Source: Heterotrichella gracilis (taxonomy: Eukaryota > Sar > Xanthophyceae > Tribonematales > Xanthonemataceae). From it: a DNA stretch of 42,852 bases. This document shows positions 2,019 through 42,823 of the stretch, piece after piece. The stretch is from the NCBI GenBank assembly GCA_032358255.1, contig JAULBX010026852.1, forward strand, positions 1-42,852, given 5' to 3'. The notes under the pieces were generated by a model that had not been told where the DNA came from, did not search any database, and worked only from the letters and a program-made list of their open reading frames with translations. The position numbers and the translations under genes are program-made. Position 1 is the stretch's first letter. Every line of letters starts with the position of its first letter.

Positions 2019-3354
2019 ATGTTCGGCACCGGCAGCAAAGGCTCGGCTTGGGAAGCCACGCCGTCCAATGACGACGTAGAACAGGTAACTCCCTTGCAAG
2101 TTGCCTGTTGATTACATGTCCGTTGCAAGTCATGGGGGCCCAAACGTCTGACTCTGCTGTTAATACACACAGCTGTTCACGGGCCAAGCCTCCTCCATCA
2201 GCGGGACCGTCCCAGTATCCACAAGCTACCAACAGCCCCTGTCACCTGCTCCAGCCGGCAGCTCCTCCCCTCCCCTGTCCAACAGCCCCTTGAACACACT
2301 GGATGAGCCTGTGTGGGCAACCATCAGGAGGGACCTGCTGCGGATCTGGTACAACCTGGTGCTTGTGGTGTTCCCGTTCAAGAGCAGGGACCAACAGCAT
2401 GTGGCACTGCGCAACTGGGATCTGTGGGGACCCATGGTGAGGGCATGGCCACATGGCACTCTATGCATGGATATGCTCCTGTTCATATCTGGATGGGATG
2501 ACGGTTAATTCTATGAGGCAACGTGATAACATTGAGCCACGTGAACCAGATGGGTGTGTGGGTATCGCTAGCAAGGACACATACGCCATCCTGATGCATT
2601 GGTATACTGCCTGCTGCATGTCTGGATTCTGCTGTATTGCCATCAACTCTCCTGCCTTCCTGTCTGCAGATCTTCACCCTGGTGTTGGCCATCACCCTGT
2701 CTGTGGGGAACGCCAGTGCTTCCCACGTGTTCTCGGTGAGTTCATGCACGGGTTCAGTCACAAGCGTGACACCGCAATGCAACCAAATTAGCAGTCACTA
2801 CCCCCTGGTGGCCTGATGGTCTGATGTACCCTCAGGCTTAGGGGTTAAGGGTGGCTGAAGCAAGCCTCATATGAACAATATTGTGTGCAGATCGTGTTTG
2901 CAGAACCTCGGAGTTTAGGGTTTTAGGGTCGAGCTAAAGAAACCTCAATGCGCACAGATCTTGTTTGCGTAACCTCAGGGTATATGGTTTAAGGTCTAGG
3001 GTTGTGCTAAAGCAAGCCTCTCTGTCCCCGCAGATTGTGTTTGCCGTGGTGTCCTTTGGCGCTGTGGTCCTCACCTTCAACGTGGAGCTGCTGGGGGGCA
3101 ACATCGCCTTCTTCCAGAGCCTGTGCCTGCTGGGCTACTGCCTGTTCCCCATTGACGTGGCGGGCCTGGTGTGCGCCTTTGTCAACAACCTCATCGTGCG
3201 CTGGGTGCTGGTGTCGGTGGCGCTGGTGTGGTCCTCGTGGGCGTCCATCCCCTTCATTGGGGGCTCGGTGCCGCCCGCCAGGCGCATGCTGGCGGTCTAC
3301 CCCACCATCCTGCTCTACACAGCGCTGTCCTGGCTCACGCTTGTGGCGGCTTGA
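2019..3354 (+). CDS. YIPF6: YIPF6-like Yip1-domain Golgi membrane protein
   Basis: Exons: 2019-2084, 2173-2436, 2670-2735, 3034-3354, all joined in phase 0, giving 238 aa (human YIPF6 is about the same length). The N-terminus is a Ser/Pro/Gln-rich cytosolic tail. It is followed by the family block [11 protein letters not shown] (near residue 60), RDWDLWGP-like sequence (RNWDLWGPM at the end of exon 2), then five hydrophobic segments including [16 protein letters not shown] and [14 protein letters not shown]1-family proteins sit in Golgi/ER membranes and bind Rab GTPases and vesicle machinery; this role is family knowledge, not shown by the sequence. The start is the first ATG giving an in-frame exon with a good GTAACT donor. 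A TGTAA polyadenylation-like motif lies at 3693. Intron 3 carries a three-unit tandem duplication of the exon 4 edge. The gene converges on QNG1. Confidence 0.93.
2837..3050 (+). repeat. Triplicated exon-4 edge in YIPF6-like intron 3
   Basis: Three tandem units of about 65-75 bp each carry a TTTAGGG-like tract, a (G/C)TGAAGCAAGCCTC or GCTAAAGAAACCTC block, and CAG followed by AT(C/T)(G/T)TGTTTGC. The first two (acceptors near 2890 and 2957) are decoys. Only the third, at 3034, continues into the conserved reading frame. Confidence 0.8.
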
Positions 3355-3692
3355 GGGGCTCAGCAGCTGTCGCGTCCTAGGTCTTGTAATGCTTTTGTGG
3401 CGTGCTGTGGCCCTGCTGACACCCTTGGGTGGGGCTGGGCTTCTGAAACCACCACTGCACCATCAATGAAGGAGCGCTTGGGGGGCTGCCATCTCCACTT
3501 GATACGTGTGCAGCGCAGCAGTGGCGTCCAGCAATGGAGCGCATGCTGGCTACTCCATCACCCTGGCAGCAGTGCCCCACACAGGGTATTGCTGGCTCGC
3601 CTCCTGGCAGCGTGCAGGATGGGTAGGAGTCATGTTTAAATGCACAGTTTGCGATGATTTCATATACCCACAAATTGCTGTGCGCTGGGCCC

Positions 3693-3697
3693 TGTAA
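3693..3697 (+). promoter_or_regulatory. TGTAA polyadenylation-like signal
   Basis: TGTAA lies about 340 bp downstream of the YIPF6-like stop. TGTAA is the usual poly(A) signal of Chlorophyceae, so the assignment depends on the organism being in that group. Confidence 0.5.
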
Positions 3698-4012: not shown

Positions 4013-4022
4013 TGTAATTACA
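4013..4022. promoter_or_regulatory. Palindromic TGTAATTACA, possible bidirectional poly(A) signal
   Basis: A perfect 10-bp palindrome presents TGTAA on both strands between two convergent genes. On the minus strand it is the first TGTAA I find downstream of the QNG1 stop, about 600 bp away. The use as a poly(A) signal is inferred. Confidence 0.35.
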
Positions 4023-4614: not shown

Positions 4615-7296
4615 CTAGTAGTACACAGTGAGCGTGCGGTGGTGCGGCGGCGCCCCCTCCCTGGCCCGCTCCCCCTGCTCCCACAGCCACCAGTCCAGCT
4701 GCACAGCACACACACACAGCCCCCGTGACGCCAGCACCCCCGCCAGCCGCTCCACCGCCACTATGGTGGCTGCGCGAATCTCCACCTCCTGGGCCGAGCC
4801 AGGGGGGATACCCACCTGGCCGTCCACCTGCGGGAGGGGAGTGGAGGGTGGGGTTCAAGGCAGGCAGAACCCTATACAGGCTGATGGTCAATGCGGGCTG
4901 AACCCTAGGCCATAACCCTAAACAAGCCGGTGGTTATGGCACACTATTTAATGGACCTAGACATTTGCCTGTGGTCAAAACCTACTTACAGTACTGGGCC
5001 CCCGCGAGTTGGCAATTACCCCACCTTTTCCGCCAGTCCCAGGGAGTACTCCATGATCCCCATGCCCCTCAGCACTACAGGCACGCGGTAGTCGGCAAAC
5101 ATGGTGAGGCGGGAAATGTCGTGGAATGCGCCCAGGCCCTGCCCCCCAAATGCGCCCCACAGGTCCGCCACAAAGATCTGTGCGCGCTTGTACAGGAACA
5201 CCTGGCGGCCCCTGCAGCGCACATACACTTTAGGGTTGGGTAATAGGGTTCAGGGTTTAGAAATTGGAATAATCAGTGTGCGTTTGTACAGGAACACCTG
5301 GCGACCCCTGCAGCGTACAATCACTTTGGGTTGTAGGTCTTCGTGTTGAGCAACATAGGGTATCCGCACGCGCTTCATCCCCAGCTAATTGCAGATTCAC
5401 CTTATGGGTCCCAAAACCCTAAACCTTGGTACCTGCGGTCAACCTTTACCCCAAACCCTCCACCGCAAACCCCAGACCCTTACCCGTACACCGCGTGGTC
5501 CCTGAATCCAGGGAAGTGCTGCGCCACAAGCTCAACCAGGCGTGCAGCTGACCCCCCGGCGGACTCAACTATCTCGCTCGCCTGGCCTCCAAAATGGCGC
5601 AGCAGGCCCCGCCCCACCTGCGGCACACACGAATTGCCCTGGATTAGGGTTTAGCGGCCACCAAACGTTGCCACAATAGGCCTCGCACCAACCGCGCGAT
5701 ACCTGGGACAGGATGTTGCAGTCGCTGAGGTGCCACTATGGTGAGGTTCCCAGAGGCAAATAGACACACTGGGCGCATTGAGGGCCCCTTCATAATGCAA
5801 AAGTTAGACGTCAAGGTTCATTAATGATTTTCATTGCACTTCCATTACGTAAATCCATTGATTACTCTTGTGCTCACAATGTGCACAATCCCATGGGGCA
5901 GAAGCACAGCGGCCCCCCATCCCCCCTTCTCCTCCCAGCAATACCCCCTTATCACACACACACACACACACACAGTACCCACCTCCCTGAGCAGACGCGC
6001 CCTCTCACCCGCCAGCGGCACATCCCCCCTCCCCCCCACCAGCCGCTGCACCAGCCCCTCGTCGGCCGCAGCCAGAGCAGGGGCGCTGATGCAGGAGGGG
6101 TCGGCACCCACTGCTGCCTGCAGGGGAGAGGGGGGCAACAGGGAAAGCGTAAAAATAGGCAGATAAATTTAGCAATGTCCATCCTGTGTAATTGTTAATT
6201 GTATCGATAGGTTGTATGGAATGGTGGTTATGTGCAAGCTGATTCACATTTGGATTACAGATTACGAGTTTAGCATGCACACCAGCTGTGTCTTAGGCAT
6301 ACGATGTAAAACCAAGATGAACTCAAAACTGCTTAGAACGGTGAACCAGACGCCCCCACCTTTTACCTCCCATGGCCCCACCCCACCCCACCCCACCACC
6401 CACTCCCCACCACCCACCTTTACCCCCCCCGCCAGGTGCTCGTACTCCAGCCCCTGCTGCGGCCAGAAGCAGAAGTTGAGCGCATCCACCACCAGCAGGT
6501 ACTGCGCGGTCAGGGGGCCGGCGCCACACAGGTGCAGGTCTGCAGGGGTGAAGAGGGCTCGGGCATGGTTTGCCAGGCGTCTGTGCGTTTTTGGCAGGGT
6601 TTTGTAGGGTTGAGCCTGGCACCACATAGCTGCAAGTCTGCATAAGTGGTGGGTGGATGGCACAACCCTAAGCGAGGGTATTTGCGCCACGGCACACAGC
6701 ATGGAAAGCATGATCAAAAGCATGGACCTGACACAGTGCAAATTAAGGTGGCCTACCTGCATCGAATGCGCGAGGGGAGGTGATGGCGGCAACCTCCTCG
6801 TCACTCAGGCCGGACGCAACACGCTCAATGGCTGCAGGGCACACACACCCTAGCTTAGGGTACTTGGTACGCACTACCCGGCACCCATGTGCACACCCTG
6901 TCTCGGGTATTGGCGTAGTTGTGCACCTGCTGTTTCAAGTGCACAAGCCGGGATCCCCAGGTGGGTCTAATAAACAGGCCAGTGTGCATGCGTTGTGCAA
7001 CTGATCCACACCTGCACCATCCGCGGTGGCCTGTGGTGACGCTAGGGGGATGCACGAACAGAAGGCGGGGTGCCGTAGGGTGGCGCGCGTGATGGCTTCG
7101 TGTACAATGGATGCAATGAAGTGCATGGCGTCTGCGTAGGGCAGTGTTTGTGGGGTTGGTATCAGTGTAGCAACTACCCACCTTGGTCCGAGATGGACAC
7201 GTCTTGCGCATTCTGGACCACGTACGCGGTGCTCTGAATGATGTTGTCAAGGATGTCTTCTCCGCCCACCCCACCACCGCTCTTACTGCTGGCCAT
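4615..7296 (-). CDS. QNG1: Queuosine 5'-phosphate N-glycosylase/hydrolase (queuosine salvage protein)
   Basis: Minus-strand exons, 5' to 3': 7296-7182, 6831-6757, 6539-6418, 6117-5983, 5617-5484, 5211-5025, 4827-4615. All phases agree, giving 326 aa (human QNG1 is 341). Family blocks in order: VQNAQDVSI near the N-terminus, VVDALNFCFWP with LEYEHLAGGVK, FPGFRDHAVY, FLYKRAQIFVADLWG and LTMFADYRVP (residues about 199-238), EVEIRAA, LDWWLWE and the C-terminal HHRTLTVYY. The family releases queuine from queuosine or its 5'-phosphate so it can be reinserted into tRNA by TGT. The start ATG has a strong GCCACCATGG context and lies just after a CTGCAG acceptor, suggesting a spliced 5' UTR. The exon 6 donor is a weak GTGGGG chosen for phase. 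The exon 6 edge is duplicated in intron 5. Confidence 0.94.
5181..5330 (-). repeat. Duplicated QNG1 exon-6 edge with acceptor
   Basis: A 54-bp stretch at 5181-5234 (acceptor plus the first part of exon 6) recurs at 5277-5330 with a few changes. The copies are offset by 96 bp, with CAGGGTTTAG-type telomeric variants between. The upstream copy keeps a CTGCAG acceptor but runs into intron after about 34 bp. Confidence 0.85.
5952..5974. repeat. (AC)n microsatellite
   Basis: An uninterrupted CA-dinucleotide run lies in QNG1 intron 4, immediately downstream of the exon 4 donor. Confidence 0.9.
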
Positions 7297-9772: not shown

Positions 9773-12700
9773 ATGTCATCCATGGTGAGCGTTTGGTTTT
9801 GGGTACACAAATAGGGGAGTTGACGTTTTGTGACACATGCATGCATATACACACGCATGCATATACCACAGAGCAGCAAGATGCCAAGCGTTTCATCGTC
9901 ACTTAGGGCTGCATGGGCCGGCTTTACAGTATTTCGGTAGTAGTATGTTACTTGCCAAAGGGCGCGCAACCATCCTGCACACCCTGCCCTGGGTAGTACT
10001 TCCTCAACTTGAGGCTTAAGGGTTGAGGAGGGGTCTGATCACCACCACTCTGCTGTACCACAGCACATATCATTTGAATCGGTTCACTGACCAAGGCGCG
10101 TTCTTTCCGAATCCCAGATGGAAGGGCTTCGGTCCCAGCTTGCATCCATGGAACAGGCCCAGTTGGACCTGAAGGGACAGCTGGAGGCAAAGTGCAGGAT
10201 CTTTGGACACGTGTGGCAGGTAAGCCCTAGGCTAGGTTTGGGGAAGGATAGGTCGCTGGGCGCCTGCGGGGGTTAAGCCCTAGGTTAAGGGTTGGGGTTA
10301 GGGCAACGCGGCAGGCTGGTGCACCCTACACCACCAGCGTGCACCTCACAAAACCTTGTAGGGTAAAGGCTGAGATGGTGTGCTTTGTGCGCTTTCTGGT
10401 TGAGGATTAGGATTCCGGTGGTCCTGGCTTAGGGTTTAGGGTTTTGGTGCTGCTGGTTGGAGACTTAGGACTAGAGGTCTCTCCCCTGTGCACAGCGCCA
10501 TGCATTCACAAAGCTGAGGTGGTGCATTTTAGGGTTCAAGGTTTAGGTTTCCCCCTTCCCTGTACACAGCACCACGAGGCCGAGGTGGGTGCGCTGTGGG
10601 GGAAGATGATTTAGGATTCAACTTTAGGGTTTTGAGCTCCCCCCTTCCCTGTGCACAGCGCCACGAGACGGAGGTGGGTCCGCTGTGGGAGAAGATTGGG
10701 GCCATGGGTGTCCACGTGGAGATGATGCGACTCCAGGGCGATGGGGCAGGGGCCAGCGGTGCGCAAAGAAACCCTACGACCTGGCACACCCCCTCCCTGA
10801 AACCCTACCGGCAACCTGGCACAAGTCCTACTGACCCTGACACCACGCCTCGGGAACATCAACAGAATCTCGTACAAAACCTTTCCCTCCGATCTCAACC
10901 ACAGCCTTCCCCATGCCCCAGCCCCCCACCACGCCTCACCCCCCACCACAGGCCACTGAGACCGAGGGCCCGAGGGCCCCCTCCGCCCCAGACCCCCCAC
11001 CCAACGGGGTGGGGGCAGTTGAGTTGCTTGATCACCAGGAGGCCATTCTTTGAGCCCTGGCATGCGCATCGCGACCACAGGACCCTAGCGTAGGGTTGAC
11101 ACGCCCGCCCCGGCCGGCAGGTGCGGTTCAGAGTTGAGGGCTAGGGTTCAGGGTTTAGGGGGATGTTCCATTGGCAGGCCTGGTCTCGTGAGGGAGGCGG
11201 GGGAGTCGGGTGGTGTGGTGGTGGGGGGGGGGGCGGCTTTCAGCTTGGCAGGTAGTTTGTGGCCCCCTAATTATCGTTGCGAATATTTGCCAACGCTTCG
11301 TGTGGATTCCATGCAAGTAATGAAACACCGCAGCTGGTAGACGCACACCATTGCCTCTGTATTTTCCTAACTAAAATGCAGTCCGTTGTTATGCCCGGGC
11401 ACGCAAGCACAGTACTCTATCTTTATCTTTCATCTATTTGTGATACCAAACCAGGTATGGGCGGCAACCAGCCCCTTCTGTGGTGATCGCAGGCCGCGCC
11501 TCCCGGGCACGCCCTGCTGCGCAAGCGGCGCCAACTGAGAGAAAAGCCTCTCCAGCTGGTGCACCAATGCCACCAGGCGCTGTAGCGCCCCCTCCTGCCG
11601 GTACACCAGTGGCTTGGTCAGCGACAGGAGCCTCTCAGCCAGGTGCCGCTGCAGCGGGAATGGCGCCACCAATACCCTTTCCGCCTGGTGCGCCAGCATC
11701 GCCAGGCGCTGCGGGAGCCCTTCAGGCAGGGGCTCAGATGGCGCCAAGCGCGTACTGGGGATCTCATGCCGGCGCCGCTGCGGTGGCAATGGTGCCACCA
11801 GGCGCTGAAGGGCCCTCTCAGGCAGCTGGTGCTTCAACTTGGCCAGGAACCGCGGGGTTCGCTCAGGCAGGAGCGCAGATGCCACCAGACGCGCAATGGG
11901 GATACCATCCAGGTGTCGCTGCGCCACCAGCGCACGGTGCTGCGCCAGGGGTTGTGCCCCCGCAGGCTGGTGCACCAATGGCTTGGGCAGCGATGACGCC
12001 CTCTCAGGCAGGGGCACCAGCGGCTCAAGCACCGCTGGCGCCAAGCGCGGCAGGGCACTCCCTGGCTGGTGCGCCCATGGCGCCAAGCGCTGGTGGGCCC
12101 ATTGAGACATGTGCCGCTGAACCAATGGCGTCATCGGCTGCCGCACCCACACCTCCTTTGCCTCCTTTACCTCCTGCTAGTAGACCGCCACAGCCCGCGC
12201 CAACCACTCAACCGCCCACCACAGCAGCAGCACCCGCCAGCTTTGCCCCTGGCAGACTTTCAACGCAACCGCAGCCTTCCTCCCCGCCGCAACGCCACCA
12301 CACACCACCCCCCTTGCTACCCACCCCCCACACCCACCCACACACCACGGAGACCGACCCCCACCCACCAACCACACCCCAAGGGCTGCTGGGGGGGGAT
12401 CAAGACGCCATACTCCTTGCCCTGGCCTCCGCATTCCGACCGCCGGTGAATACCCTGGGTATGGCCGCCGTATAAAGCAGCCGGCAGGTGAGGGTTTTGG
12501 GGTTGGACTTTGCACAAGAACTCTGTAAGGTGTGATAGATAGCGCATTTTCCGAGAGCGTCGCCAATTACAGTACATAATAAGGATGTTAAAATGATGCA
12601 TGAATCATGCTTGCAAGAAATCTGTGCATTGAATTCCAGCATCACTGTAGAATGCGCAGTGTATATGATGGGTGGCAATCACATGACAACAACAGCCTGT

Positions 12701-17900: not shown

Positions 17901-20900
17901 ACGAGGGTGCTTGCACATCCCATTGGGCAACTCCTGTGCTCAATGCGCTCAGGTTCTACTGCTGCGGAGTCGAGGCTGCTGCAAGTCCAGACTGGCAGCA
18001 GGCTTGAGTCTGCAACAATAGAGCCTCAGCGGGTTGTACACAGGAGTCGCCTAGATCTAGCCCTGGCGCAGGACACCCTGGACAGTACAAGAGCCTCCCC
18101 AACGTAGTCTACAAGGGGGTCAACCCAACTTTGCCGCCTCACCCCTCACTCCCTCCCCCCCCACCCCTGCAGCCCCGCCGCCTCTGCGGTTGGTGCGCCC
18201 TCCCCTGATGCCTTCCCTGAGCTATCGTCCACCCCTGTGTCGAAGGCGCCCGCTGGGGCCTGGGGCAACCCCGCTGGGGCATGGGGCGGTGGCAAGGGGC
18301 TGGCGTCGCGGTTACTGGCAAGCGCAGGTGGGTGTGTAGGGTTTGGGAGGGGGTTCAGGTTTACAGCTGGTGTGGCGGTGACTGGCGAGCGCTGTGGGTA
18401 TTTGAGGGTTTAAGCTTTAGAGTTTAAGGATTTCGTCGCGGTGACTGGCAAACGCGAGTGGGTGGGGGTTCAGGCCCCACTGTGTGCAACCATGTGGGAG
18501 TTCAGTTGTTCCTTGTAAAAGCCATGCTGTGTACAACCATGTGAGGAAGCATTGAGTGAAGCATTATGTACGAAAACGTGTACGAAACCATTATGTTTGA
18601 AACCATTATGTACGAAAACGTGTACGAAACCTTGTGATAAGTGCCTTCATACATGTGCGGCCACCGTTCCTCCACGACACCCCCTCACACACACATTTAC
18701 ACACCCAAACTTACCCCCCCAGCCCCCTCCCACCCCCCCTCCACCCCCGCAGGTGTGCCGGTGTCCGCCCCTGCCGCCTCCCGCCCCACCCGCCCGACGC
18801 AGGAGGATGTGGTGGTCTATGAGCAGCGGTGCGGGCTGCGGGTGGGGGATGACGAGGTGCCGGACACCATGCGCAAGAAACAGGTGGGGGGTGGGAGGGT
18901 GGGAGGGTGGGGGGGCTGAAGTTGGTATAGGGTTTACGGTCCAGCTTAATATGTCCAGCTTTACAGCCAGGGGAGCAGTGCTGGGTGCGCATGCCTCACC
19001 CCATTTTGTGGTCAAGGCTTGTTGAACCGCCAACCCTGGTGCATGTAGGGTCCATGGCCACAACGTCCTGGCAGCTCAAACCTGACCCGTGTTTGTCATT
19101 CGCACAAACCCCTAACTCAGGGCTTCTCCCTGCGCACAGGCCCGGAAGCAAGAGTTTGAGCACACCGAGTATGTCCCCGGCAAGGGCCAGGTCAACATCC
19201 TCCAGGGGCTGGAGCTGCACTGCCCCATACTGTCACCTGCTGAGCAAGAGCAGCTTGCGGCACATGTGATGCAGTGGGAGGAGATGGTGAGGGGAAGAAC
19301 ACACTTAGCAGGGGTTTTTGGGTGCACGGGCTGTTAGGAGGTGGTGCAGTGGGACGACATGGTAGGGAGGACAGAACATGAACATTGAACAATCTCGCAA
19401 AGGGAGCTGGAACTGGACTGCCCCATACTGCCACCTGCCTAGCATGTGTTGTAGTGGGAGGAGATGGTGAGGGGAGGAAACCCTTAGCAGGGGTTTGGGT
19501 GCGGCGGGGGTGGGGCGTGGGGTTGTTGGCGGCGCATGTGGCACAGTGGGGAAGCCGCACAAACGGGAGTGGCATCACCGGGGTGTGGGGCTGACAAGGC
19601 CATACTGCCAAAACCCTTCGTTTAAAACCCTACTGCCATTGCCACACCACCATCAGTAAGGAATTGCACTTGCACTGCAGGGCCGCGCCAACATGCTTCG
19701 GGGCCGCACCTTCTCGGCCCCCCGCAAATGGCTGCCCGGCAAGGGCAGGATCACCATCCAGTTTGGCTGCTGCTACAACTACGCAACAGACCAGCAGGGC
19801 AGGCTGCCAGGTAACCCTAAACCCTAAACCCCCGCAAGTGGCTGCCCGGCAAGGGCAGGATCGTCATCCAGTTTGGCTGCTGCTACAACTACGCAACAGA
19901 CCAGCAGGGCAGGCTGCCAGGTAAAATCACAAACCCTACCATACCCTACATAGGCAGGCAAGTGGTAACGGGAAGGTAAACTTTGAATCAAAGCTGCTTG
20001 TGCATTCCTGGAGAACACGTTATATGTCGCGTGACGAGTGCAGAGAGCACGCCCTGTCTGCAACTTGCTGTGATATACCCAAACCATGTGATGCGTACCA
20101 CAGCATCACAAGGACTGGTGTTGAGAAATGAGCTGCGCACCAAACCCTCCGCCAAACCCTACCCAAACCCCTAAGCAGGGGTCCCCCCTCCTCTCACCAG
20201 ACATCGTCCTGAGGCTTCTGTCGAGCCGGTCCGCCTAATGCCAACCATGAGTGTCCAAACCCCTAACCTAGGGTTCCTCCCCCCGCAGGCATCGTCCCTG
20301 AGGAGGTTGTTGAGCCCCTCCCCCCAGTGCTCCAGGCGCTGTGCAGGCGGCTGGTCCGCTGGTCAATACTGCCTGCATCACGGGAGCCAGACACTGCCAT
20401 CATCAACATCTACGAAGAGGGTAGGGCAATGCTGGGGGTCGATGGGGGTTTGTGCATATCACAAATCCATGCCCAGGCGCCAGTCACAGCAGTTTTCACC
20501 AGATACAGATAGGTTGAGCTCGTGAAACTAGATAATGGATGGCATCTGCAACTTTTTGACGCCTCCCATACGCATGCGCACCCCTGCAGCAGCTTCCACC
20601 CCCGCACATATGCATACACCAAGCCCCCTCTCCCTGCAGGCGACTGCATCCCCCCACACATTGATCATCACGACTGCATCTATCCCTTCCCTAAACCCTA
20701 CCCCCCCCCCTGCAGGTGCCTGCATCCCCTCACACATTGACCACCGCGACTGCATATCTCCCTTCCCTAAACCCTCAAACCTAACCCTAAACCTTAAATT
20801 GTTTCTGCAGGCGACTGCATCCCCCCGCACATCGACCACCACGACTTCATCCGCCCCTTCTGCACCGTGTCGCTCCTCAGCCAACAGCACATGCTGCTGG

Positions 20901-26700: not shown

Positions 26701-29700
26701 ATTAGTATGCCCTGATAGGATACGCGCGCGCATACTGTGCGTCCATGCAGCAAAGCACAAGGATCACAAGTCTTGAGGCCATGTTCATCCCCACCATGCA
26801 CTAAGGGCAGGGGCGCATTGCATGCATTAAAGCAATGCACGGCGCACATGCGCTTGGAGTTGCAAACTCTGCAACGCACGCCACACGCACGCACGCCTTG
26901 CACTGAGCCATGCGCACTGGGTTACCCACCCACTGCCAGCCCCCCCTCACTCACTCCCCTTCGCTCCCCTTGCAGGGATTTGTCCTCCAACCAGCTCACA
27001 GGCCAGCTGCCCTTTGATTGGGCCAGCCAGTATGGATTCCAGAAGCTGGAGCAGCTGTACGTGCAAAACCCTCAACCCTGGCCCAAACCCCAAACCCTTG
27101 GACTGGTCCTGCCAATGTGATTGACACGCCTGCGAGTTGCTGCACCGTATTGCACCACGCGTTGCCCCAATACCCTAAACTGAAACCCTAATTTGCCAAG
27201 GGCCATGCCGTGCTGTTCCAAGTGGTCAATAACGATGCCGTGAACCAGCTGCCCTTGATGGAACCCCTGTTATACGTTCCAGCAATACAGCCAGATTAGC
27301 AGTCAGTCCTACGTGCCTTGCGCCAATCAGCTTATATGGAACTCTAATGACGCGTATTCTTTGCTGCAGCAACCTGTTCTCCAACTACCTGACCATCACC
27401 TTCCCCTTTGACTGGGGCAAGTACTCTTACGCCTTCCCCTCCCTGCAGCAGCTGTGAGTATAACACATCCCCCTTGCACACACACCACCACACGCACCAT
27501 GGTTGTCCTCTTCCCGCACACACCACCACCACGTATTCCTTCCCGCCACTGCAGCAGCTGTTGGGTATATTTCACCCCCTTGCATGCATTTCCTGTTGGT
27601 TCTGCCTGAGCTCCTTGCACACACGCAACCACGCACACGCGCGTGACACTCACCACACTCACACACCACACTGCTAATTTCGCCTTGTGCGCACGTTCCT
27701 GCTGTGCGGACAGTCCCCACACCTGCTGGGATCTTGCCTGACCCCTCCCCCCTTCCCCATCTTGCAGCACCCTGAGCAACAACACCGCTGGGTTCCTCCA
27801 GGAGGCGGACCTGGACCAGCCCACATCCAACGCATTCCCAAACCTCACAACGCTGTAAGTGACAGAAGGAGAGGGTGGTAGACCCTAGGCTAGGGTGTGC
27901 ATATGTGTGGGGGATAGTGTCATGCCTGGCTACGCAATGGCGTTGCAAGGAGGAACCCTAGGGTAGGGTGTCTGTGCGGCAGAAGGGGGTATTCTCGGAT
28001 AGGAGTGGACGACTATCCCCATCACCACCACCCCCCCACCCACCCCCACCCACCCACTAACCCCCACCTCCCACAGGCAACTGGACACCATCGGCCTCAC
28101 CTCCTCCCTCCCGCGCGACACCTGGGGCACCCCGCGCTTCCTGCCCAACCTGCAGTACCTGTACCTGCAGAACAACCTGCTCAAGGGGAGCATACCAGAC
28201 GAGTGGCTTATGCCGGGGAGGTTTGAGAAGCTGGTGTACCTGTAAGTGGGGAGAGCCCTAGGAAACCCTCAAGAACCCTAGACCTGTGTGTGGGTCCCTA
28301 AACATATCCGACGAGTGGCTCATGCCGGGGAGGTTTGAGGAGCTGGGGTACCTGTGCGTGGCACAAACCCTATAAAACCCTATGTGTGATCAACTCTTGG
28401 AACCCTCACTGAAGGGGCCTGGATCAAACCCCCGGAGTTATCTAACCTGCAAATTGCGTGTACATGGTCGATACACCCACACACTGTCCACCACCTGCAA
28501 ACCCACCCACATCCACGCCGCACCCACCGCCCACCACCACCACGCCCCGCCTCACCCCCCACCCCGCACCTGCAGGGACCTGTCCACCAACCACCTGTCT
28601 GGCACCCTGCCCGAGGCGTGGGGCGCCAACGTGACCCTCCCGCTGCAGCACCTCAACCTATCGGCAAATCAGCTGAGGGGGACGCTGCCGGCGTGCTGGG
28701 GGGACACGTTCACGCAGCTGGAGAAACTGTGAGTCTTGCATGTACCCTACTTTGCCAGGGGTTACCTAGGTTTTAGGGTTTAGGCCGGCATGCTTGGGTG
28801 CTCGTTTGTGAGAGCTGTGGGTCAACCCTAGGCTGCTGTGCGTTGACCTTCTGGGCCTATACCCATGGATGCTCGGTTGCAGATGCGGCTGTACGAGTGC
28901 GGGCATGTAGGGTATAGGCTGACAAGCAGTCGCACAACCTCATCCCCCACACACCCTCACTCACCCCCTCCACCCCCCACCCCGCAGCGTGTTGAGCTTG
29001 AACCAGCTGAGCGGCACCCTCCCCCCCGAGTGGTCCTCCATGGTGTCTGTGTCTGAGCTGCGGGTGGATGACAACCTGATCGAGGGGGCGCTGCCCTACG
29101 AGTGGGGGGTGGGCGGCATGGAGCAGCTCAAAATACTGTGAGTGGCTGGGTGGGGGTGGGGGTGAAGTGTGGGTGCCTTGTGACCTGTTGAGTGGGCCGC
29201 TGCTTCGAGGATCTGAATGCAAACTTGAATTTGATTTTGGGTACTTATTGCGCCTTTTGCCAATCGTAGGCTGGCCAGTGTCTCCGTCCTATGCCGCTAA
29301 CCTCAAGGACGAAAATGCCAGTCCTATCCTATCATAGTCCCCCCTTCTTAACTCCCCTGCTGAATCCCCCTCCCCTCCCGTTCCACAGGAGCCTGGCCAA
29401 TAATCTCATCAATAGCACCATGCCAGAGACATGGGGGCCAGGCGCGGGCATGCCGTTCCTGCTGTCAATGTAAGGACCGCACTCACCCCTGTGAATTGCT
29501 TATATGCTTCCCCCTTGTTGACACACACACACACATACTGGCAGACCTCTCGGTGCGCTGCCTGTTGGATGATCTGCATAAATGTGACGGTGGATGGATG
29601 CGGAAGACACTTTCCCTGTCCATGTGCTTGGATGTGGTAGGGTTGCAGGGTACACCATGTTTAGGGTTGCAGGGTGTTTTAGGGTGTCAGGGTGGTTTGC

Positions 29701-32700
29701 ACCGATGCGCAGGTCCTCACACCCCCACCCCCCACCCCAGGTACATCCACAACAACGACCTCCAGGGCTGCCTCCCCCCCTCCTTCTCGCACGCCCCCCA
29801 GGCCGACCCCGCCCTCAACGGCCCCAACGCCTGGTACATCCGGCCCGGGAACCCCGAGCTCTGCGCCGAGGACTTCTCCGACGGCTCGGTCAACGAGCTG
29901 AACAGCAACATCACGCTGCTGTGCCATGTCATCGACTATGACCCCAACGCCGCCAACGTGTCGTCGTGCATCGAGGTGGATTCGGTGTGCGCCGCGGGCG
30001 AGGCGTGGGCGATGTCGGACGTGTGCCTCATCCCCGAGGACTGCGCGCCACTGACCTGCGGTGAGTCGGGGTTTTAGGGTTGAGGTGTGTGCGCGGTTCC
30101 CAATATAGTCCCCTGACCAGTCTCAATCCCATGTGTACATTGCCATACCATAGCCAGGGTTCTCTGCGATTGCTACAGACCCTAGCTAGGGTTTAATCAC
30201 CAGGCCCTCACCCCTGTGTGCCCCTGTTTATTTGCAGAGAGCCTCAACGACCCACCACCACCTGTGCCCCCCATCGCCGCCGCCACCCCACCCACCCAGG
30301 GGCTGTCGCCCGCGCCCACCCCCATCCCAGCCCCCTCAGGTGTGCGCGCGCTATCACAACACACACCGGGCACCCATTAGCCCACACTGCCTACCCCAAA
30401 TTCTGTTGGCGCCCCTGCACTCCCCTTCCCCACACCATAATCAGCAAATATGGCGGTTGCTGCCAAGTCTGGTGTACCATGGGACTTTGCTACATCACAT
30501 CTGTTTTTGGGTTTGCGCTGAACGGTCCAGCATCATTTAAGCCCCCCCACCCCCCCACCCACCCTCCCCTCCGATTCCAGCACCCTCGTGGCCCTCACAC
30601 ACGCGACCCGCAAACCCTAAACCCTGAATCCTGAACCCTAATCCCTCCCCTGCAGGCTCCAACTCCAGCACTCTTGTGGCGATCCTCGCCTCAGTGGTGA
30701 GCGTGCTCCTTGTAGCCACCCTGGTGTGCGGAGGCTGCATATGGAACAGGCGCCGCAAGCGCAAGGCCGCGGCACTGCAGGACCCGACCCAAAAGCCATC
30801 CCTCTCGCCCCTCACCGATGCCGACCACGACCACCACCACCTCCAGCATGCCTATGCCGCCGTGCGCCCTGCGGATTCTGCGCGGGAGGAGGAGGATGGG
30901 GGCAAGGAGGGGGTGGTGGTTGTGGGGTCGATGCTGGGCGGCAAGGGGGGCTTGGTGGAGGGTGCGGACCAGGACCACAGCCCATTTGCCGGGCTGGCGG
31001 GGCTGATGCCGGCACTGAGTAAGTGCCATAGCCCCTATTTGGAAACCCTTAAACCTAAAATACTATACTTGTAATCCCTACACCCTTTGCGATGGCTCGG
31101 CTGCTACCTGCACTGAGTAAGGACCCAAGCCATAAACTGGAAACCCTAAAACCTGAACCACTCAATTGTTAACCCTAATAAACCCTTTAAGGTGGCGGAA
31201 CTGCTGCCTGCACTGAGTAAGGGCCTACAACCTAAAGTTCTTTTTAACCACAACTGTGAAAACACGTGACCTTGAAGTATATACCCATTTTGGTCGCTGC
31301 CTGTGCATGGTATGTGTGAAATTCAACCTTGAACGAATACCCGCCAATTCTAAGAAAGCCACCTCGCCATGCCATGGTGGTTAAAGGTAAATGCATGTAG
31401 CACTCTTGCGCCTCCTCATTTCTGAAATCTGACCAAACCTGCATTTTTTGCATCCCCAGGCGGCGTCGTCACCCCCCGGGACCGCCCCGCCAGCTCCTCC
31501 GATGGCGGCTCCGGCTCCCGCTCCCGCTCCCCACGCCTGTCCCGGGAGAGCTCCACCACCTCTTCCCGGGATCCCAAGGCCGGCGGCCCATCCCGGAAAT
31601 TCCCCATCGACGCCGAGCTGGACGCAGCCTTACCGCGCCACCTGGCAGTGGCGCAGCAGGCGGGCGAGCCCGGGACCCCCCACGGGGATGGGGACCAGCG
31701 CTCGCTGCCCTCCTTCACGCAGCGCCCCTTCACGCGGCCCCCCACCGCCCCCCACCCCTTTGCCGACTGGGTGCAGCGGCCCCCACAGGGCGACGCCCAG
31801 CAACCCCCGCCGCCCCCCAACGGCCGCCCCACCCGGCACTTGTCGGGGGGCGCCGTGCAGCCCGCTGTGCACCATGGGGCGGAGCTCGCGAGGTCTTCCA
31901 CGCTGCCTGCGGACCTTGCTGCTATTGGGGCGAAAGTGGTGTCATCCCCGGCATCTGGGGCTGGCTGTGGCTCCACATCGCTGCGTGAGGAGCGGCCGAT
32001 GCGGCAAACGGACGTGCTGCGGAGGTGCGTGCAGGTTTCAGGGTGTGGGTGGACGCGCTGTAGGCGGTAAACCCTAATGTTAGGTGAGAGGCAGGGGGTC
32101 ATGAGGGGCTCTCCCGCTGCTCACCACACGGGGCCTGTCTGACACAGTCCATTGTTGATTAGCATAGCTTATCGGAGGGAATCCCAGGGATGCGCTTCGT
32201 TCCACTTGCAATTTTCGATAATCCCAGGGATGCCCGCTGCAACATTTTGTGCCTGATTGGCGCCTGGCTGCGCACTGTTCTGCATGTGCCTGCTTGGCCA
32301 GTGCGCCGCACCCCCACTCACCCCACCCCATTACCCTCCCTTAGGGTTGATGGCGGGCCGGATGACGAGGACGTCTCCCCCCCTGCGCCCTCCACCTCGT
32401 TCCCCCTGGGCTTGATGGACGACGACTGGCAGGTGTGCCCAGAGGAGCTTGAGATCTGCACGCGAGCAAACGGGGAGGACTGGGTGCTTGGCCGGGGGTC
32501 GTTTGGAGCGGTGGGTGGGGATGGGAAATGGGGAATGTGCACTGGTTTGGGGATTTAGACTGGAGTTTGTTTTGGCTGTGTGGGGTGTGAGCTTGTGTGG
32601 GGGGTAGGCATTTGGAGCATAAGGGCGACCGCGGGTTGCACTAGCTGCACTCATGTCATGTGTGCCACCTGTCACCCACATGTCAACCCCTGCCTGGGTT

Positions 32701-34421
32701 ACCCCTGCTGCTGCTACCATGCAAGTGTAGACATGCAGCATGCACCTTACCACCACCACCACCCCGTCACCACCACCACCCCACCCAGGCCCAGTTTGAA
32801 AGGGGCATGTGCACATACCCCTCCACGCACACCCCCTCCCCCCCCCCACCACCACCACCTCACCCCCCCACCCCCTCCACCCGCAGGTGTTCAAGGCGCA
32901 GTGGAAGGGCGGCATCTACGTGGCTGTGAAGACCATGAACAACGTCAACGACCAGACCTGCGCCACCTTCTTGCGCGAGATCACGCTGCTCAAGTCGTGT
33001 CGGAACCCGCACATCGTGCAGTTCCTGGGCGCCTGCGTTGGCCCCGCGCGGGTGCTGCTGGTCACTGAGCTGATGGCGGGGGGCAGCCTGTGGATGCAGC
33101 TGCAGAAGCGCACCGTCTCGTGGTTCCACAGGTGGGGAGGGGGAGGGTTTCCTGGCTTTCTGGTTGGGATCTGGGTAGGGTCTGCGTGGGCACTGACAGT
33201 GACAACCTGTGCAGAAGCGCACTGACAAGCCCTGAGAATACTCCCTTAAGATTTTTAAACAGACAACATGAAGTATACATGAATGAACCGTACCCTGAAC
33301 CCTGCGGATACCTTACACAGTACCCCGCCAAACCCTACCCAAATCCCTGCAACTAACCCCGCCCAACCCTCGCCAGGGGCTACCGGATCGCCATGGAGAT
33401 TGCGCACGGCCTGCACTACCTGCACGAGCGGAAGGTGCTGCACCTGGACATCAAGTCGCCCAACATCCTGCTGTCCTCCAACGGGACAGCCAAGATTGCG
33501 GACGTGGGGTTGGCCCAGATCATCCAGAGCACCTACACCAACCACCCAGGGGGGGCGCTGCCGCCCGAGTTGCAGGGCACGTGGGCGTGGATGGCGCCCG
33601 AGGTCATAGTGGGTGCGTGGCGGGGGGTCTGGGTGGTGGGTGGTAGGGTTTGTGAAGCGGGGCGGAGCCTGTCCTTTTTTCAAGGATACTGCAGGGCACG
33701 CGGGCATGTTGACGAGTAGATGCATAGACTTGACCCAGCCATATGGGCCCTAGTGGTTGGATGATGGGATATCCATGTGGATGGGCTGGTGGTGTAGGGT
33801 TTTGTCTCATTTTGTCTCAGCGCCCCCACTCCTTCCCCTTCCTGCACGCCCCAAGGCCGACGTGTACAGCTTTTGGTGCCACATCATTGTTTCTCTGTGG
33901 GTTTTTTAGGGTTTCTTTGTGGTTTCTCTAGGGTTTCCTGACAGATCTCCTTCAATTGCAGGCCCCAAGGTGACCACCAAGGCTGACGTGTACAGCTTTG
34001 GTGTGCTCATGTGGGAGATTGTGACAGGGGAGGCGCCGCAGAGGAATTTGCGGAGGGAGGTCAGGTGAGCGGTACAGTCATACTGCATGCAGTGCAGAAT
34101 AGTACCTGCAACCGCGCCCATCATCATCATAGCCCAATCACACATTATGCACTGTTGCGGCGGCAAACCCACCCCTCACACCCCACGGGCACCCAGCCCC
34201 ATCATTGCACGTGCAAAACCCTCACCTAGGGTTCATTCTCCCCTTGCTAAAACCCTCTTTCTTTCCCCTGCCGCAGCGTGCCCGATGAGTGCCCCGCCGA
34301 GGTGCAGGAGCTCATCTCGGAGTGCACAGAGAGCGCCCCGGGCGAGCGACCCGCCATGCGCCAAGTCATCGCCACGCTGCGGGCGCTGGTCAGGCAGGAC
34401 CCGCAGCGGTACCGCGGGTGA
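23752..34421 (+). CDS. LRR receptor-like kinase with TKL-type kinase domain, single-pass membrane protein
   Basis: Twenty-three exons: 23752-23857, 24195-24360, 24559-24663, 24930-25013, 25432-25512, 25879-25959, 26376-26456, 26976-27056, 27370-27453, 27768-27854, 28077-28241, 28576-28728, 28988-29137, 29389-29469, 29741-30060, 30238-30339, 30656-31018, 31460-32024, 32345-32510, 32887-33131, 33377-33612, 33962-34064, 34277-34421. All phases agree; 1249 aa. Order: signal peptide (1-30), LRR cap with VCTWSFVKC, about 13 LRRs (92-502), Cys-containing ectodomain (to 608), Pro-rich stalk, TM 648-672 followed by NRRRKRK, a long Ser/Pro-rich juxtamembrane segment, kinase from about 990. Kinase motifs: GRGSFGAV, K1022, E1038, HLD (D1113), N1118, DVG (D1131), APE 1162-1164. 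The active-site residues are present but HRD is HLD and DFG is DVG. IVQFLGAC suggests a TKL/Raf-like origin rather than plant RLK/Pelle. Ligand unknown; probably a plasma-membrane sensor. Confidence 0.93.
24725..24785 (+). repeat. Duplicated telomere-like intron segment
   Basis: GGGGTTTAGGGTTTATTGCC is present twice in tandem in LRR-kinase intron 3 (about 24728 and 24762), each copy followed by CTG. Confidence 0.8.
27431..27565 (+). repeat. Duplicated exon-9 donor edge of the LRR-kinase gene
   Basis: The exon end CGCCTTCCCCTCCCTGCAGC, then AGCTGTGAGTATA (27431-27463), is echoed at about 27537-27570 by TTCCTTCCCGCCACTGCAGC and AGCTGTTGGGTATAT. The decoy has lost the GTGAGT donor. Confidence 0.7.
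28191..28357 (+). repeat. Duplicated exon-11 donor edge of the LRR-kinase gene
   Basis: About 54 bp at 28191-28245 (GACGAGTGGCTTATGCCGGG, then AGGTTTGAGAAGCTGG) recur at 28304-28357 with four or five changes. The offset is about 113 bp and CCCTA-rich sequence lies between. The decoy ends CTGTGCGTGG instead of CTGTAAGTGG, so it keeps a GTGCGT-type donor. Confidence 0.85.
30575..30690 (+). repeat. Duplicated exon-17 acceptor edge of the LRR-kinase gene
   Basis: GATTCCAGCACCCTCGTGGC at about 30573-30592 mirrors CAACTCCAGCACTCTTGTGG of the true exon (30660-30679). CCCTAAACCCTGAATCCTG lies between. The decoy would start inside the sequence just before the membrane segment. Confidence 0.75.
31001..31230 (+). 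repeat. Triplicated exon-17 donor edge of the LRR-kinase gene
   Basis: Three copies of GGC-GG-CTG-TGCC(T/G)GCACTGA followed by GTAAG occur at 31001-31023, 31091-31118 and 31192-31220. Units of 90-100 bp each carry GGAAACCCTAAAACCT or AACCCTAATAAACCCT spacers. All three keep an intact GTAAG donor; only the first follows the coding exon. Confidence 0.85.
33841..33998 (+). repeat. Duplicated exon-22 edge of the LRR-kinase gene
   Basis: GCCCCAAGGCCGACGTGTAC then AGCTTTTGGTG at about 33848-33878 copies the true exon start at 33962-33998 (GGCCCCAAGGTGACCACCAAGG, then CTGACGTGTACAGCTTTGGTG) with a 9-bp deletion and an extra T. CTGCAC replaces CTGCAG, so the decoy acceptor is dead. Confidence 0.75.
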
Positions 34422-40699: not shown

Positions 40700-40799
40700 A
40701 TCTTAGTCTGGTCTAGATTTAGCGAAAGGCGTCATGACAGCTGAACAGTAGCGTAGCTAGTTATAGCTTTAAATTTAGGGGGCTTCAACTGCAGCTTCA
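40700..40799. promoter_or_regulatory. Putative bidirectional promoter
   Basis: Only about 100 bp separates the proposed minus-strand start at 40699 from the plus-strand start at 40800. An AT-rich TTATAGCTTTAAATTTAGG lies near the plus gene. The assignment rests on both start exons being right. Confidence 0.35.
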
Positions 40800-42823
40800 A
40801 TGGACACCATGGTCAGAACCTGTGCCTGGGTCACTGTGGTGCTGCGCCTGGTGGGAGCGAGGCAATTATCGGCCACTGGAAGCGACGTAGACCGCTATGA
40901 AGGTAGGTACACTGCTGGGCAACTGTTGGCTATAGCAAGGCGCACATGCATGCATGCACGACGCACCGTCACACCTAGTATGTATCACGCTCCGAAAGTG
41001 CCCATACCACGCCGCAGTTGCCGCAGTGCTGTTAGGCCTCTTGCCATTTCAGAGGACCACGTACGTGTGAGCTTGCATCTATCGTGTGTTGATCACACCT
41101 TGATTCGAGTGGGGTGACCCATGGCGCAGGTATCCTCCCCGCCCAAGCTCCAGACCTGGAACTATTGGCTAGCACAAGTACTCAAGCTCCTGCTGCCAGC
41201 GTGGCTGCCTTCGCACCAGGACCTACCACGACCCAGGAACACGCTGGCACGGCCACTGAGGTTGGTGAAATGGTTCCTAACCCTGGCATCACACATATGT
41301 ACACCCCGCACTGCCCTCTGCAGTTGAAACCACGCCAACCAGGCACACGCCCCCCAAACTAACATGCAGCGGCCACCTGCTCCCCACCTGTGCTTACCCT
41401 GCACCCCAAATGCCTGAACCCTGAACCCTTAGACCCATACTCCATGGATGCAGCCGTGCCAGCGCTCAACCCTAATCCCCAACCCCTAAACCCTATGCCC
41501 AGTTCCAACACCCACCTCTGGTCTGCAGCGCACCGGCCCACTGAGCCTTCCCACCACCTCCAAACCCACGGCCCCCCTGCCCACTGCCGCCCACAACCCC
41601 CAGCTGCAGCCCACCACCACACCCACCCCCTCCGCCAACCTGACCACCCTGACTACCCCCACCGCCACTGCCCACGCACCCCCACCCACCACCCCAACCC
41701 AGGGCGTGGCCGCAGCCAGTCTGCCCTCTGCCACGCCAGCACCAGCACCATGGTCAGCGTCCCCGCCAGCACTTTCCCAGCTGCTGCCCGGCTCCAAGAG
41801 GGGCCAGGAGGAGGCTCTGTGCCACTGCCCGGCGCAGGCTGTGGCTGTGCAGGTCCAGGCAGCTCAGGTAGCGCAGGCGCCAGGCCCAGTGGAAGCCTGC
41901 ATTCCAAGTGAGTGGCCATAGCTGCGCCTGTGCTTCGAGTCCTTGCCTAGGAAGCTCGACCCACGTCATGTCAAATGATTCTGTGAGGGAACCTGGAGCC
42001 CCTGATACTAGGGCATGTATTGCAGAGTGGGGTGGTGACTGTTTTTAACACCCAAATTCCAGGTTCACTGCACCTGTTGTGCCCCCTCCCCTTTGCAGCC
42101 CCCTGCCCTCTGATAGTAGATATCACATCATATTCTTATAAATTAACAAAAAAGGACAATAAAATTCATCAGTACGGTAATGGTACACTGCATCCCCGCA
42201 TGAAGTAGTATACTGTTCTTATTCCCCCCTTGTGCCGCAGCCCCCGTGCAGTACGCCAGCGACGCCCTCAAGGCAAAGTGCAAGGACTACCGCCTCATGG
42301 GCGCGCTGTTTGCCACACTCATGGACTCCTTCAGGGCAGAAAACATCACCGCGGGCGAGCTGGCGGGAACAATCGACACCCTCACAGTGGCCGCTTTGGG
42401 CAACAAGCTCAATGACAAGCCATGGTTGGCAGCTGCGGATAAGAAGGTGATGCAGGCATTTATTTGTATCTTTATTTATTGATTTACGTATTATTTATAT
42501 ACCAAATAAATAAATAAATATTTATTTACCTATTTGTTCATTTATTTAGGTGGATGCAGAGTTATAACTTGTATTGATTGATGTACTGATTTATTTATGT
42601 ATTTACTCATATATTTACTCATTTGTTTCTTCATCAGGTGGACGCAGATATTTGGAGCGCCACCAGCGCCGCCTGGCAGGCCAAGTGCCGGAGGCACTAC
42701 TGGAGCTTTGCATGCGACCTGTGGGTGCCCGTGTTCTGGATTATGGTGTTCCTGGGCCAACTTTGCTGCCGTCCCTGTAAACAAATTCGGACTTGTCATA
42801 GCGCAGTTGTGGTGGTTGGGTGA
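40800..42823 (+). CDS. Thr/Pro/Ala-rich secretory-pathway protein with C-terminal hydrophobic segment
   Basis: Proposed exons: 40800-40902, 41130-41264, 41503-41907, 42241-42446, 42638-42823, giving 344 aa with phases agreeing. The N-terminus (MDTMVRTCAWVTVVLRLVGA) resembles a signal peptide. The middle is Thr/Pro/Ala-rich, a likely O-glycosylated stalk. Exon 4 encodes a compact helical part (YASDALKAKCKDYRLMGALF, TIDTLTVAALG). The last exon has LWVPVFWIMVFLGQL, a probable membrane segment, then a Cys-rich tail (LCCRPCKQIRTC). The last two exons have strong splice sites and clear coding character. The 41264 donor and 41503 acceptor are chosen for phase; 41260 with 41529 is an alternative. Family unknown. 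Intron 4 is rich in ATTT repeats and holds a decoy copy of the last exon's edge. Confidence 0.55.
42460..42635. repeat. (ATTT)n-rich intron with decoy exon edge
   Basis: ATTTATTT and TAAATAAATAAAT runs fill this intron. At 42544-42562 TTATTTAGGTGGATGCAGAG copies the true acceptor edge TCATCAGGTGGACGCAGATA at 42632-42651. The decoy keeps an AG and the same phase but soon meets a stop. Confidence 0.8.

Follow-up and report, generated by a model that had tools for sequence, protein, structure and literature searches.

The window, by which we mean the whole analysed stretch of 42,852 nucleotides from Heterotrichella gracilis, holds an ALKBH9/10-like gene and a leucine-rich-repeat (LRR) receptor-like kinase gene, and many of their exon edges recur in the neighbouring introns (Table 1). 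The protein encoded by the last five exons of the ALKBH9/10-like gene gave its lowest E-values with Trebouxia (60% identity) and Coccomyxa (59%), followed by land plants at similar identity, and the joins of these exons are gap-free against five homologues. The genome seems to be that of a green alga. The LRR kinase gene has Pfam matches to LRR_1 and PK_Tyr_Ser-Thr/Pkinase, an open conceptual reading frame and gene-finder support, its exons upstream of 26976 coming from the gene finder only. In the window as a whole, four of the 20 ORFs had Pfam matches. The gene finder was trained on these two genes, and exon calls elsewhere depend on it; after retraining it shifted one hand-set donor from 33612 to 33642 and took parts of certain copies for exons (window 10570-10584; L017).

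Table 1. Genes, duplicated exon edges and telomeric tracts in the window. X1 and X2 are the two copies of one duplicated segment.
Feature	Position	Strand	Remarks
Acceptor-edge copies of Yip1-domain exon (3034)	2888..3044	+	Array 45.5 bits; edge score 25; Yip1 profile match
Acceptor edge of exon ending 5211, with copy 5272-5333	5176..5333	-	87.3% identity; edge score 68
Acceptor edge of exon predicted at 10659, two copies	10528..10696	+	80.5% identity; edge score 36
ALKBH9/10-like (m6A RNA demethylase-like) gene	18173..21374	+	7 exons found: 18173-18327, 18753-18883, 19140-19286, 19681-19810, 20289-20420, 20811-20966, 21194-21374; re-found by gene finder
Donor edge of exon a (18304-18334) with two copies in the intron (ends ~18399 and 18464)	18299..18464	+	Telomere-like spacers
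Donor edge of exon c with copies in the intron, 19341-19378 and 19403-19502	19205..19502	+
X1, ALKBH exon d end with donor site	19719..19814	+	96.9% identity to 19829-19924
Telomeric junction filler, perfect 19-base tract	19813..19831	+	Between X1 and X2
X2, exon d end with donor copied into the intron	19829..19924	+
Exon e acceptor edge, intronic copy	20163..20241	+	Edge itself 20255-20330; 36.5 bits; edge score 28 (null maximum 27)
Exon f acceptor edge, first intronic copy	20625..20689	+
Telomeric tract, 12 bases	20689..20700	+	Between exon f edge copies
Exon f acceptor edge, second intronic copy	20701..20765	+	Followed by degenerate telomeric repeats
ALKBH exon f, real acceptor edge	20805..20860	+
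LRR receptor-like kinase gene	24195..34417	+	16 exons annotated by hand, from 26976 on
LRR exon, donor edge at 27432-27478 with its copy in the intron at 27538-27584	27432..27584	+	Spacer without telomeric heptamer
LRR exon, donor edge at 28191-28269 with its copy in the intron at 28303-28381	28191..28381	+	CCCTA-type spacer
Weak intronic copy of exon starting 30656	30569..30592	+	Score 28 (null maximum 27)
Donor edge of exon ending 31018 and two more ~98-bp intronic units	30995..31225	+
Kinase exon stretch 33977-34003 with its copy in the intron at 33851-33878	33851..34003	+	92.9% identity, 28 bp
Listed locus, 13-bp match at chance level	42541..42655	+	Score 21

An earlier note on this DNA had listed 14 duplicated exon-intron junctions, on both strands and with copies spaced about 65-115 bp apart. 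When exon edges were aligned to their own introns, 12 of the 14 loci scored 28-94, above every one of 1,397 null alignments of left exon edges with introns of other genes (maximum 27). Locus 2837-3050 is weak, its score of 25 exceeding the null's 99.5th percentile, while 42541-42655 falls inside the null with a match indistinguishable from chance. Two junctions beyond that list also exceed the null maximum, namely the edge of the minus-strand intron 6540-6756 (31) and the acceptor of 18328-18752 (28). By gene-finder prediction a single listed locus, 5181-5330, lies in a minus-strand gene, and the spacing proved broader genome-wide, about 20-220 bp. The copies do sit in the adjoining intron, as had been claimed, a position that is unavoidable because the outer copy must remain attached to its exon. 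They diverge by 3-29% within the window, which argues against assembly duplication, the artefact that the earlier note had kept in view.

The pattern extends beyond the window, since in the genome-wide sample 47 of 587 edges have a copy at a score of at least 34, 37 of them among the 483 edges outside the window. Among 108 local duplication pairs, 52 contact the edge of a predicted exon, against an expectation of 34.0±4.7, and none of 1,000 random placements reached 52; 28 pairs are fully intronic (31.8 under random placement) and seven intergenic (22.5 expected). These pairs come from our own offset scan, reduced from 144 pairs by removing periods below 20 and non-adjacent array pairs. The statistics on duplications, telomeric repeats and genes leave out L002, L007 and L011 (GC 35-38%), which were kept in an octamer count, and the adjacent-pair counts leave out the coding repeat arrays of L018 before 8,400. 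Low-complexity segments were dropped as well. BLAST pairs underlie the analysis of hand-annotated introns, the 21-segment correlation and part of the splice-site retention given below. BLAST discards self-matches on near diagonals, and this explains an apparent minimum period of about 60 bp, which we had considered as a splicing constraint and rejected as an artefact, the offset scan giving 22 rows below 62 bp.

Exon edges are thus enriched, as had been proposed, but the location is not exclusive. In the 21 hand-annotated introns, eight of which are involved in duplication, pairs of at least 28 bits contact an edge or the adjacent exon, apart from low-complexity repeats and copies of decoys; the intron-only class looked empty in this small sample, but the 28 wholly intronic pairs led to the rejection of strict edge specificity. 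The emphasis on exon edges is partly an effect of survival and detection, since conservation of the copy in the exon keeps such pairs recognisable for longer.

The main clue to the mechanism, absent from the earlier note, is the telomeric repeat at the junction between copies. The telomere repeat of this genome is CCCTAAA/TTTAGGG, and CCCTAAA arrays start at positions 4-7 of seven contigs. Internal tracts match this terminal repeat, with 2,437 exact matches of 17-mers, overlapping ones included, as opposed to one in the reversed control. The telomeric heptamer occurs in 39 of 66 spacers between copies, compared with a mean of 17.3 and a maximum of 28 in 500 draws from introns of the same loci, and with 12 and 17 of 66 in the outer flanks, which are 6 nt shorter. 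Likewise, at a score of at least 30, 38 of 109 telomeric tracts have direct duplications on their flanks; for random positions the count is 123 of 910, and for mixed flanks it is 10 of 2,000. Two above-cut-off matches to Telomerase_RBD, the telomerase RNA-binding domain, were found on C626 in a profile search. On this sequence evidence we put at just under 0.6 the probability that the duplicated segments with telomeric filler (X-telomere-X) are scars left when staggered breaks or paired nicks were repaired with telomerase extending an end, and that they survive where they are spliced out.

Such an event would begin with a staggered double-strand break, or a pair of nicks about 15 to 140 bp apart, in a transcribed region. 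Judging from the repeat found there, telomerase would add the cell's own telomere repeat to one 3' end, and fill-in and joining of the ends, sometimes by microhomology of a few bases, would yield X-(TTTAGGG)n-X, an anatomy directly visible in clean cases (window 19719-19924, L057, L064 and L065). Further rounds could produce X-tract-X-tract-X arrays in a single orientation; the arrays and their common orientation are observed. Scars in coding exons would presumably be harmful and lost. Where the duplicated segment X includes an exon edge, the outer splice site would still function, so that the scar would persist as a decoy exon edge in a lengthened intron, and scars entirely within introns would persist as well.

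Several details of the junctions bear on this scenario. Of 50 cases scoring at least 26, 15 have X no more than 10 nt from the tract on both sides and 25 on one side. At right junctions microhomology of at least 2 nt was seen in 7 of 12 (null 9%), one of the seven being a pre-existing tract; at left junctions it was seen in 7 of 16 (null 5%), five of these being 7-12 nt long, that is, telomeric sequence also outside X, which leaves 2 of 11. One 167-bp segment checked for dispersed, introner-type copies matched the genome only at its own place. On the other hand, 27 of the 66 spacers lack the heptamer, the share of tracts flanked by duplications shows no clear increase as tracts get longer (13/36, 9/34, 10/23 and 6/16), and L019 has many duplications and few telomeric repeats, all of which count against repair by telomerase.

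The same is true of the 71 of 109 tracts without a flanking duplication at score 30, a figure that would instead suit pre-existing intronic tracts that are fragile or form G-quadruplexes and stall forks, template switching or slippage then re-copying 50-200 bp of flank, so that the tract causes the duplication. Some tandem units do hold the tract inside or at their outer side, and tract-rich loci are also rich in duplications (Spearman 0.65, 21 segments). We nevertheless consider this explanation unlikely, as heptamers favour the spacers over the outer flanks and, in L030 and L065, both tracts lie between the three copies and none directly outside them. Moreover, the identity between X copies increases with tract length (Spearman 0.52, P 8e-4, n=38), as expected if duplication and tract arose together.

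Alternatively, unequal exchange or slippage between neighbouring tracts could amplify the segment between them, turning tract-X-tract into tract-X-tract-X-tract. Close tract pairs, 80-110 bp apart, are in the same orientation in 262 cases and in opposite orientation in 17, with 41 same-orientation pairs at 400-430 bp, a distribution that would suit repeated telomerase repair as well; L003 8227-8518 is bounded by tracts on both outer sides. Outer tracts, for example in L003, L014 and L044, fit recombination between existing tracts and speak against telomerase repair there. As the source of the duplications this process is improbable, leaving the first X-tract-X unexplained where an outer tract is absent (window 19719-19924, L057, L030), but it may well add copies after the first duplication.

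Regarding the fate of the copies, GT or AG is preserved in 54 of 59 decoy alignments, which might point to selection keeping the decoys as alternative or regulatory splice sites. Against a first control of 75% the one-sided P was 0.0015, and against the best control, exon codon-position 1-2 dinucleotides (82%), it was 0.03; the excess shrank with the better control and faded once margins were applied (43/47, P 0.05; 35/38, P 0.09; 27/29, P 0.13). As wholly intronic duplications also lie near their random-placement frequency (28 vs 31.8), such selection would be the least expected of explanations.

The earlier note had read the duplications as a process creating or lengthening introns. Recurrent local duplication does add intron sequence; creation, however, was rejected as a general outcome, since a repeat in donor-acceptor register scores at least 12 in only two of 402 introns (0.06 expected) and at least 14 in none. 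That a duplicated exon segment generally turns into a new intron, by tandem genomic duplication or break repair, is accordingly very improbable, the pairs in annotated genes joining a donor or an acceptor edge with the intron and never donor with acceptor. The case that favours it, besides the two introns above expectation, is L062, which was spotted by eye among 14 loci and lies outside the 402 introns. A perfect telomeric tract lies within its 87-bp GT...AG intron, and the end of the left exon matches that of the intron in register with a score of 15.4, where up to 20,000 random pairings gave no more than 15; a single frame is open across the full spliced 348 nt. The main outcome of the proposed telomerase repair would be longer introns, perhaps with a new intron now and then, as in L062.

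On the repair reading, the duplications described here would be a variant of already known telomeric break-repair scars. Short interstitial telomeric sequences of mammals are described, in the cited passages, as insertions of the cell's own repeat at double-strand breaks (PMC2246262, PMC7215372). The two share the own telomere repeat at internal sites and direct target duplication, explained there by staggered breaks; the nucleotides in register with the tract described there at the break may have a counterpart at some of our junctions (PMC2246262, PMC7215372). In those passages, however, plain duplication is the minority (6 of 130 rodent, 4 of 25 primate and 3 of 66 horse loci), compared with 38 of 109 tracts here, and our cases differ in forming recurring arrays, most frequent in and around introns (PMC2246262, PMC7215372).

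Related processes have been connected with introns and transcribed regions in other organisms. New introns of Daphnia likewise contain direct repeats in their interior, which were interpreted as successive staggered breaks with passive intron lengthening; the exon-neointron repeats are 4-12 bp and the text contains no word starting with 'telomer', whereas our copies are longer and often have telomeric filler (PMC4202315). Intron gain by tandem genomic duplication also involves local duplication with splice-like sites, but by the accounts cited it requires a donor-acceptor register that is generally lacking here and present in L062 (PMC3443670, PMC4974935). For the spread of plant telo boxes, telomerase has been proposed to act on free 3' ends in transcribed regions, with transcription-linked breaks; those boxes are mostly single motifs concentrated in 5' UTRs, with no intron enrichment in the table and no mention of flanking duplications in the part cited (PMC3022908). 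Direct repeats near intron borders have similarly been taken as break-repair footprints close to splice sites, although they average 11.4 bp and are there attributed to intron insertion, while ours chiefly reflect lengthening of existing introns (PMC11782384).

Taken together, the data suggest that telomerase participates in DNA-break repair and thereby lengthens introns. A stronger version is possible, if rather doubtful: telomerase could be a regular, iterative partner of break repair in transcribed regions, the extended 3' end re-annealing about 15-140 bp upstream, copying the segment anew and being extended again, so that X-telomere arrays build up. Introns would then owe much of their growth to this process, which would also supply ready-made decoy splice sites and occasionally new introns (L062). 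The source of intron sequence is a long-standing open question, and here the telomere repeat labels individual events, so that the mutational origin of intron length, of decoy exon edges and perhaps of new introns could be read genome-wide from such scars. If the repair reading is true, telomerase would be a routine partner in internal break repair beyond mammals.

Self-comparison of the window (contig C434, 1-42852) recovered local duplications at exon edges. In the ALKBH9/10-like and leucine-rich-repeat (LRR) receptor kinase genes, where 21 introns were annotated by hand, eight introns hold copies of neighbouring exon edges at a cut-off of at least 28 bits, namely of six donor and three acceptor edges; one acceptor-edge pair begins 15 bp inside the exon. 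The earlier note had listed fourteen loci where exon edges are copied into adjoining introns; on a common score scale, twelve exceed all 1,397 null comparisons, while 2837-3050 is weak and 42541-42655 is attributable to chance. The five joined exons of the ALKBH9/10-like gene (19140-21374) show gap-free joins against five homologues, and the extra exon-edge copies there are therefore not coding. Among the 120 of 367 matches listed for their conceptual protein, the best E-values belong to Trebouxia (60% identity) and Coccomyxa (59%), and land plants come next with similar identity; together with the CCCTAAA telomere, such matches suggest a green alga as the source of the assembly (903 contigs, 68.5 Mb). 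Further genes of the window encode the LRR receptor kinase and a Yip1-domain protein.

Repeat features in the window and at other places in the assembly (C, contig; L, locus sampled elsewhere)
Feature	Location	Unit, copies or spacing	Remark
Array of related units	window 209-1425	neighbour spacing about 195-213 bp	no predicted exons; copies without telomeric heptamers
Repeats within predicted coding sequence or long ORFs	window 16841-17119 and 11573-12015; L018:3203-4604 and 7413-8317	120 bp; 141-372 bp; 125-126 bp (roughly 42 codons)	
Short tandem repeat	window 35369-35433	31-bp unit, 2.1 copies, 97%	not picked up by BLAST self-comparison
Cleanest window case of copies around a tract	window 19719-19924	two 96-bp copies, 96.9% identical	telomeric tract in between
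GTGAGT plus telomeric tract, twice	C28:6347/6424	77 bp	candidate donor-edge duplication
GTGAGT plus telomeric tract, twice	C172:77630/77711	81 bp	candidate donor-edge duplication
GTGAGT plus telomeric tract, twice	C244:223251/223361	110 bp	candidate donor-edge duplication

The genome-wide sample comprised 20 stretches, namely positions 20,001-30,000 of C1 and of contigs C20 to C380 in steps of 20. Three stretches with a GC content of 35-38%, against 50-60% in the remaining samples, were set aside (L002, L007 and L011, from C1, C100 and C180, respectively); these contigs are probably bacterial, judging from GC and, in L002 and L007, from ORFs of at least 250 aa (five, the longest of 838 aa, and three, respectively). 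A small gene finder, for which the ALKBH and LRR-kinase genes served as training set, recovered the exons of both genes and mistook none of the decoys in them for an exon, decoys being intronic copies of an exon edge with its splice site. Retrained on its own calls, it shifted one hand-set donor from 33612 to 33642 and treated segments of some copies as exonic (window 10570-10584 and one copy in L017), exons outside the two genes being predictions only.

Alignment of exon edges with their own introns bore out the recurrent copying: a copy at a score of at least 34 was found for 47 of 587 edges and in none of 1,397 null comparisons. Intron-interior segments reached this score in 65 of 1,182 cases, where each pair can count twice, and at a score of at least 50 the counts were 27/587 for exon edges versus 20/1,182 for intron-interior segments. 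An offset scan yielded 144 pairs, or 108 once periods below 20, non-adjacent array pairs, the coding repeat arrays of L018 before 8,400 and low-complexity segments were dropped. The proposed focus on exon edges was upheld as an excess, with 52 of the 108 pairs touching a predicted edge versus 34.0±4.7 under random placement (0 of 1,000 placements reached 52), but not as a rule, since 28 pairs are intronic (31.8 at random). The remainder were intergenic or unassigned (7 versus 22.5), exon-other (13 versus 13.8) and exon-exon (8 versus 6.0). Conservation of the exon copy would by itself produce some of this excess at edges; identity within edge alignments was 82% for dinucleotides of codon positions 1-2, 72.5% for those including position 3, and 58% in the intron part. 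Across the 17 sampled loci and the window, duplication periods are spread rather evenly between about 20 and 200 bp, with a sharp fall above about 220-250 bp.

The most frequent octamers in the sampled DNA are telomeric, and the density of telomeric heptamers is 10.2 per kb in introns, compared with 0.65 in predicted exons and 4.2 in other sequence. Such a heptamer was present in 39 of the 66 spacers separating two copies, versus 12/66 and 17/66 outer flanks (flank windows being 6 nt shorter) and a mean of 17.3 and a maximum of 28 in 500 draws from introns of the same loci; half of the tandem units lacking a spacer (7/14) also hold one. Viewed from the tracts, direct duplication was found across 38 of 109 (score of at least 30, within 180 bp); random positions from these loci gave 123 of 910, and mixed flanks 10 of 2,000. 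Unselected loci contributed 13 duplicated of 45 tracts, the remainder coming from loci chosen for holding a tract. On the sense strand of introns in unselected loci, C-type telomeric blocks outnumber G-type ones (192 versus 146, P 0.014), the former peaking near both intron ends and the latter near the donor end. The palindrome GCATGCAT occurs 155 times in the sampled loci, both strands counted, versus 55 expected.

In regard to the origin of these structures, several observations favour a single event for tract and duplication over a chance meeting of the two. Copies on either side of longer tracts are more alike (Spearman 0.52, P 8e-4, n=38), and microhomology of at least 2 nt was found at 7 of 12 right junctions (null 9%), one of the seven being a pre-existing tract. 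At left junctions the count was 7 of 16, but five of those seven represent 7-12 nt of telomeric sequence outside the duplicated segment. L030 and L065 each have three copies separated by two tracts, the sequence immediately outside being free of tracts, and in L057, L059 and L064 copies of 21-64 bp lie beside or near perfect tracts of 39-48 bp. Genome-wide, 262 pairs of telomeric 13-mers share their orientation at 80-110 bp, a count that falls to 64 at 200-230 bp and to 41 at 400-430 bp; for opposite orientations, the two counts at 80-110 bp are 6 and 11. All counts include overlapping matches and some contribution from terminal arrays. The assembly also contains a telomerase RNA-binding domain, as well as genes of the DNA polymerase A family that are spread across several hits; polymerase theta may be among them.

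The main rival explanation is that fragile telomeric tracts were already present and caused the duplications. Against the involvement of telomerase, about two thirds of the tracts have no flanking duplication at score 30, the duplicated share shows no clear rise with tract length (13/36, 9/34, 10/23 and 6/16), some arrays carry tracts outside the duplicated segment, 27 of 66 spacers are without a telomeric heptamer, and L019 has duplications with few telomeric repeats. Given the copy-identity, junction, array, orientation and telomerase-gene results, we favour telomerase extension, in which a staggered break or paired nicks would arise and one end would be extended by telomerase during repair, a scheme whose break, enzyme and sequence of steps are all inferred.

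Median intron length is 319 bp where a telomeric heptamer is present (139 of 324 introns) and 213 bp where it is absent, a difference partly expected because longer introns offer more room for heptamers. Intron creation, also proposed in the earlier note, is not supported as the usual outcome: its signature, a donor-acceptor register repeat, is nearly absent, being found in 3 of 402 introns at a score of at least 10 (0.58 expected), 2 at 12 or more (0.06 expected) and none at 14 or more. The best candidate for intron creation is L062, chosen by eye among 14 loci and outside the 402-intron set, the gene finder having predicted no exon at this locus. Here a perfect telomeric tract of 41 bp lies in a GT...AG stretch of 87 bp, the end of the putative left exon matches that of the putative intron in register at 13.6 + 1.8 = 15.4 (random-pairing maximum 15, up to 20,000), and one frame is open across all 348 nt once the stretch is removed.

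A study of Chlamydomonas reports interstitial telomeric repeats, with end-to-end fusion named as a possible source (PMC6549138). Comparison was extended to work on mammalian interstitial telomeric insertions (PMC2246262, PMC7215372), telo boxes (PMC3022908), Daphnia introns (PMC4202315), intron gain by tandem duplication (PMC3443670, PMC4974935) and intron-border repeats (PMC11782384), and to PMC12636532 and PMC10236652. Among the titles and abstract beginnings listed, mostly outside subscription journals, none dealt with telomeric filler in duplications of intron edges; an earlier description is possible. Telomeric break-repair scars with target duplication and intron growth at staggered breaks are already known. 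The pattern described here is real and recurrent, carries a specific telomeric signature, and is a variation on both.
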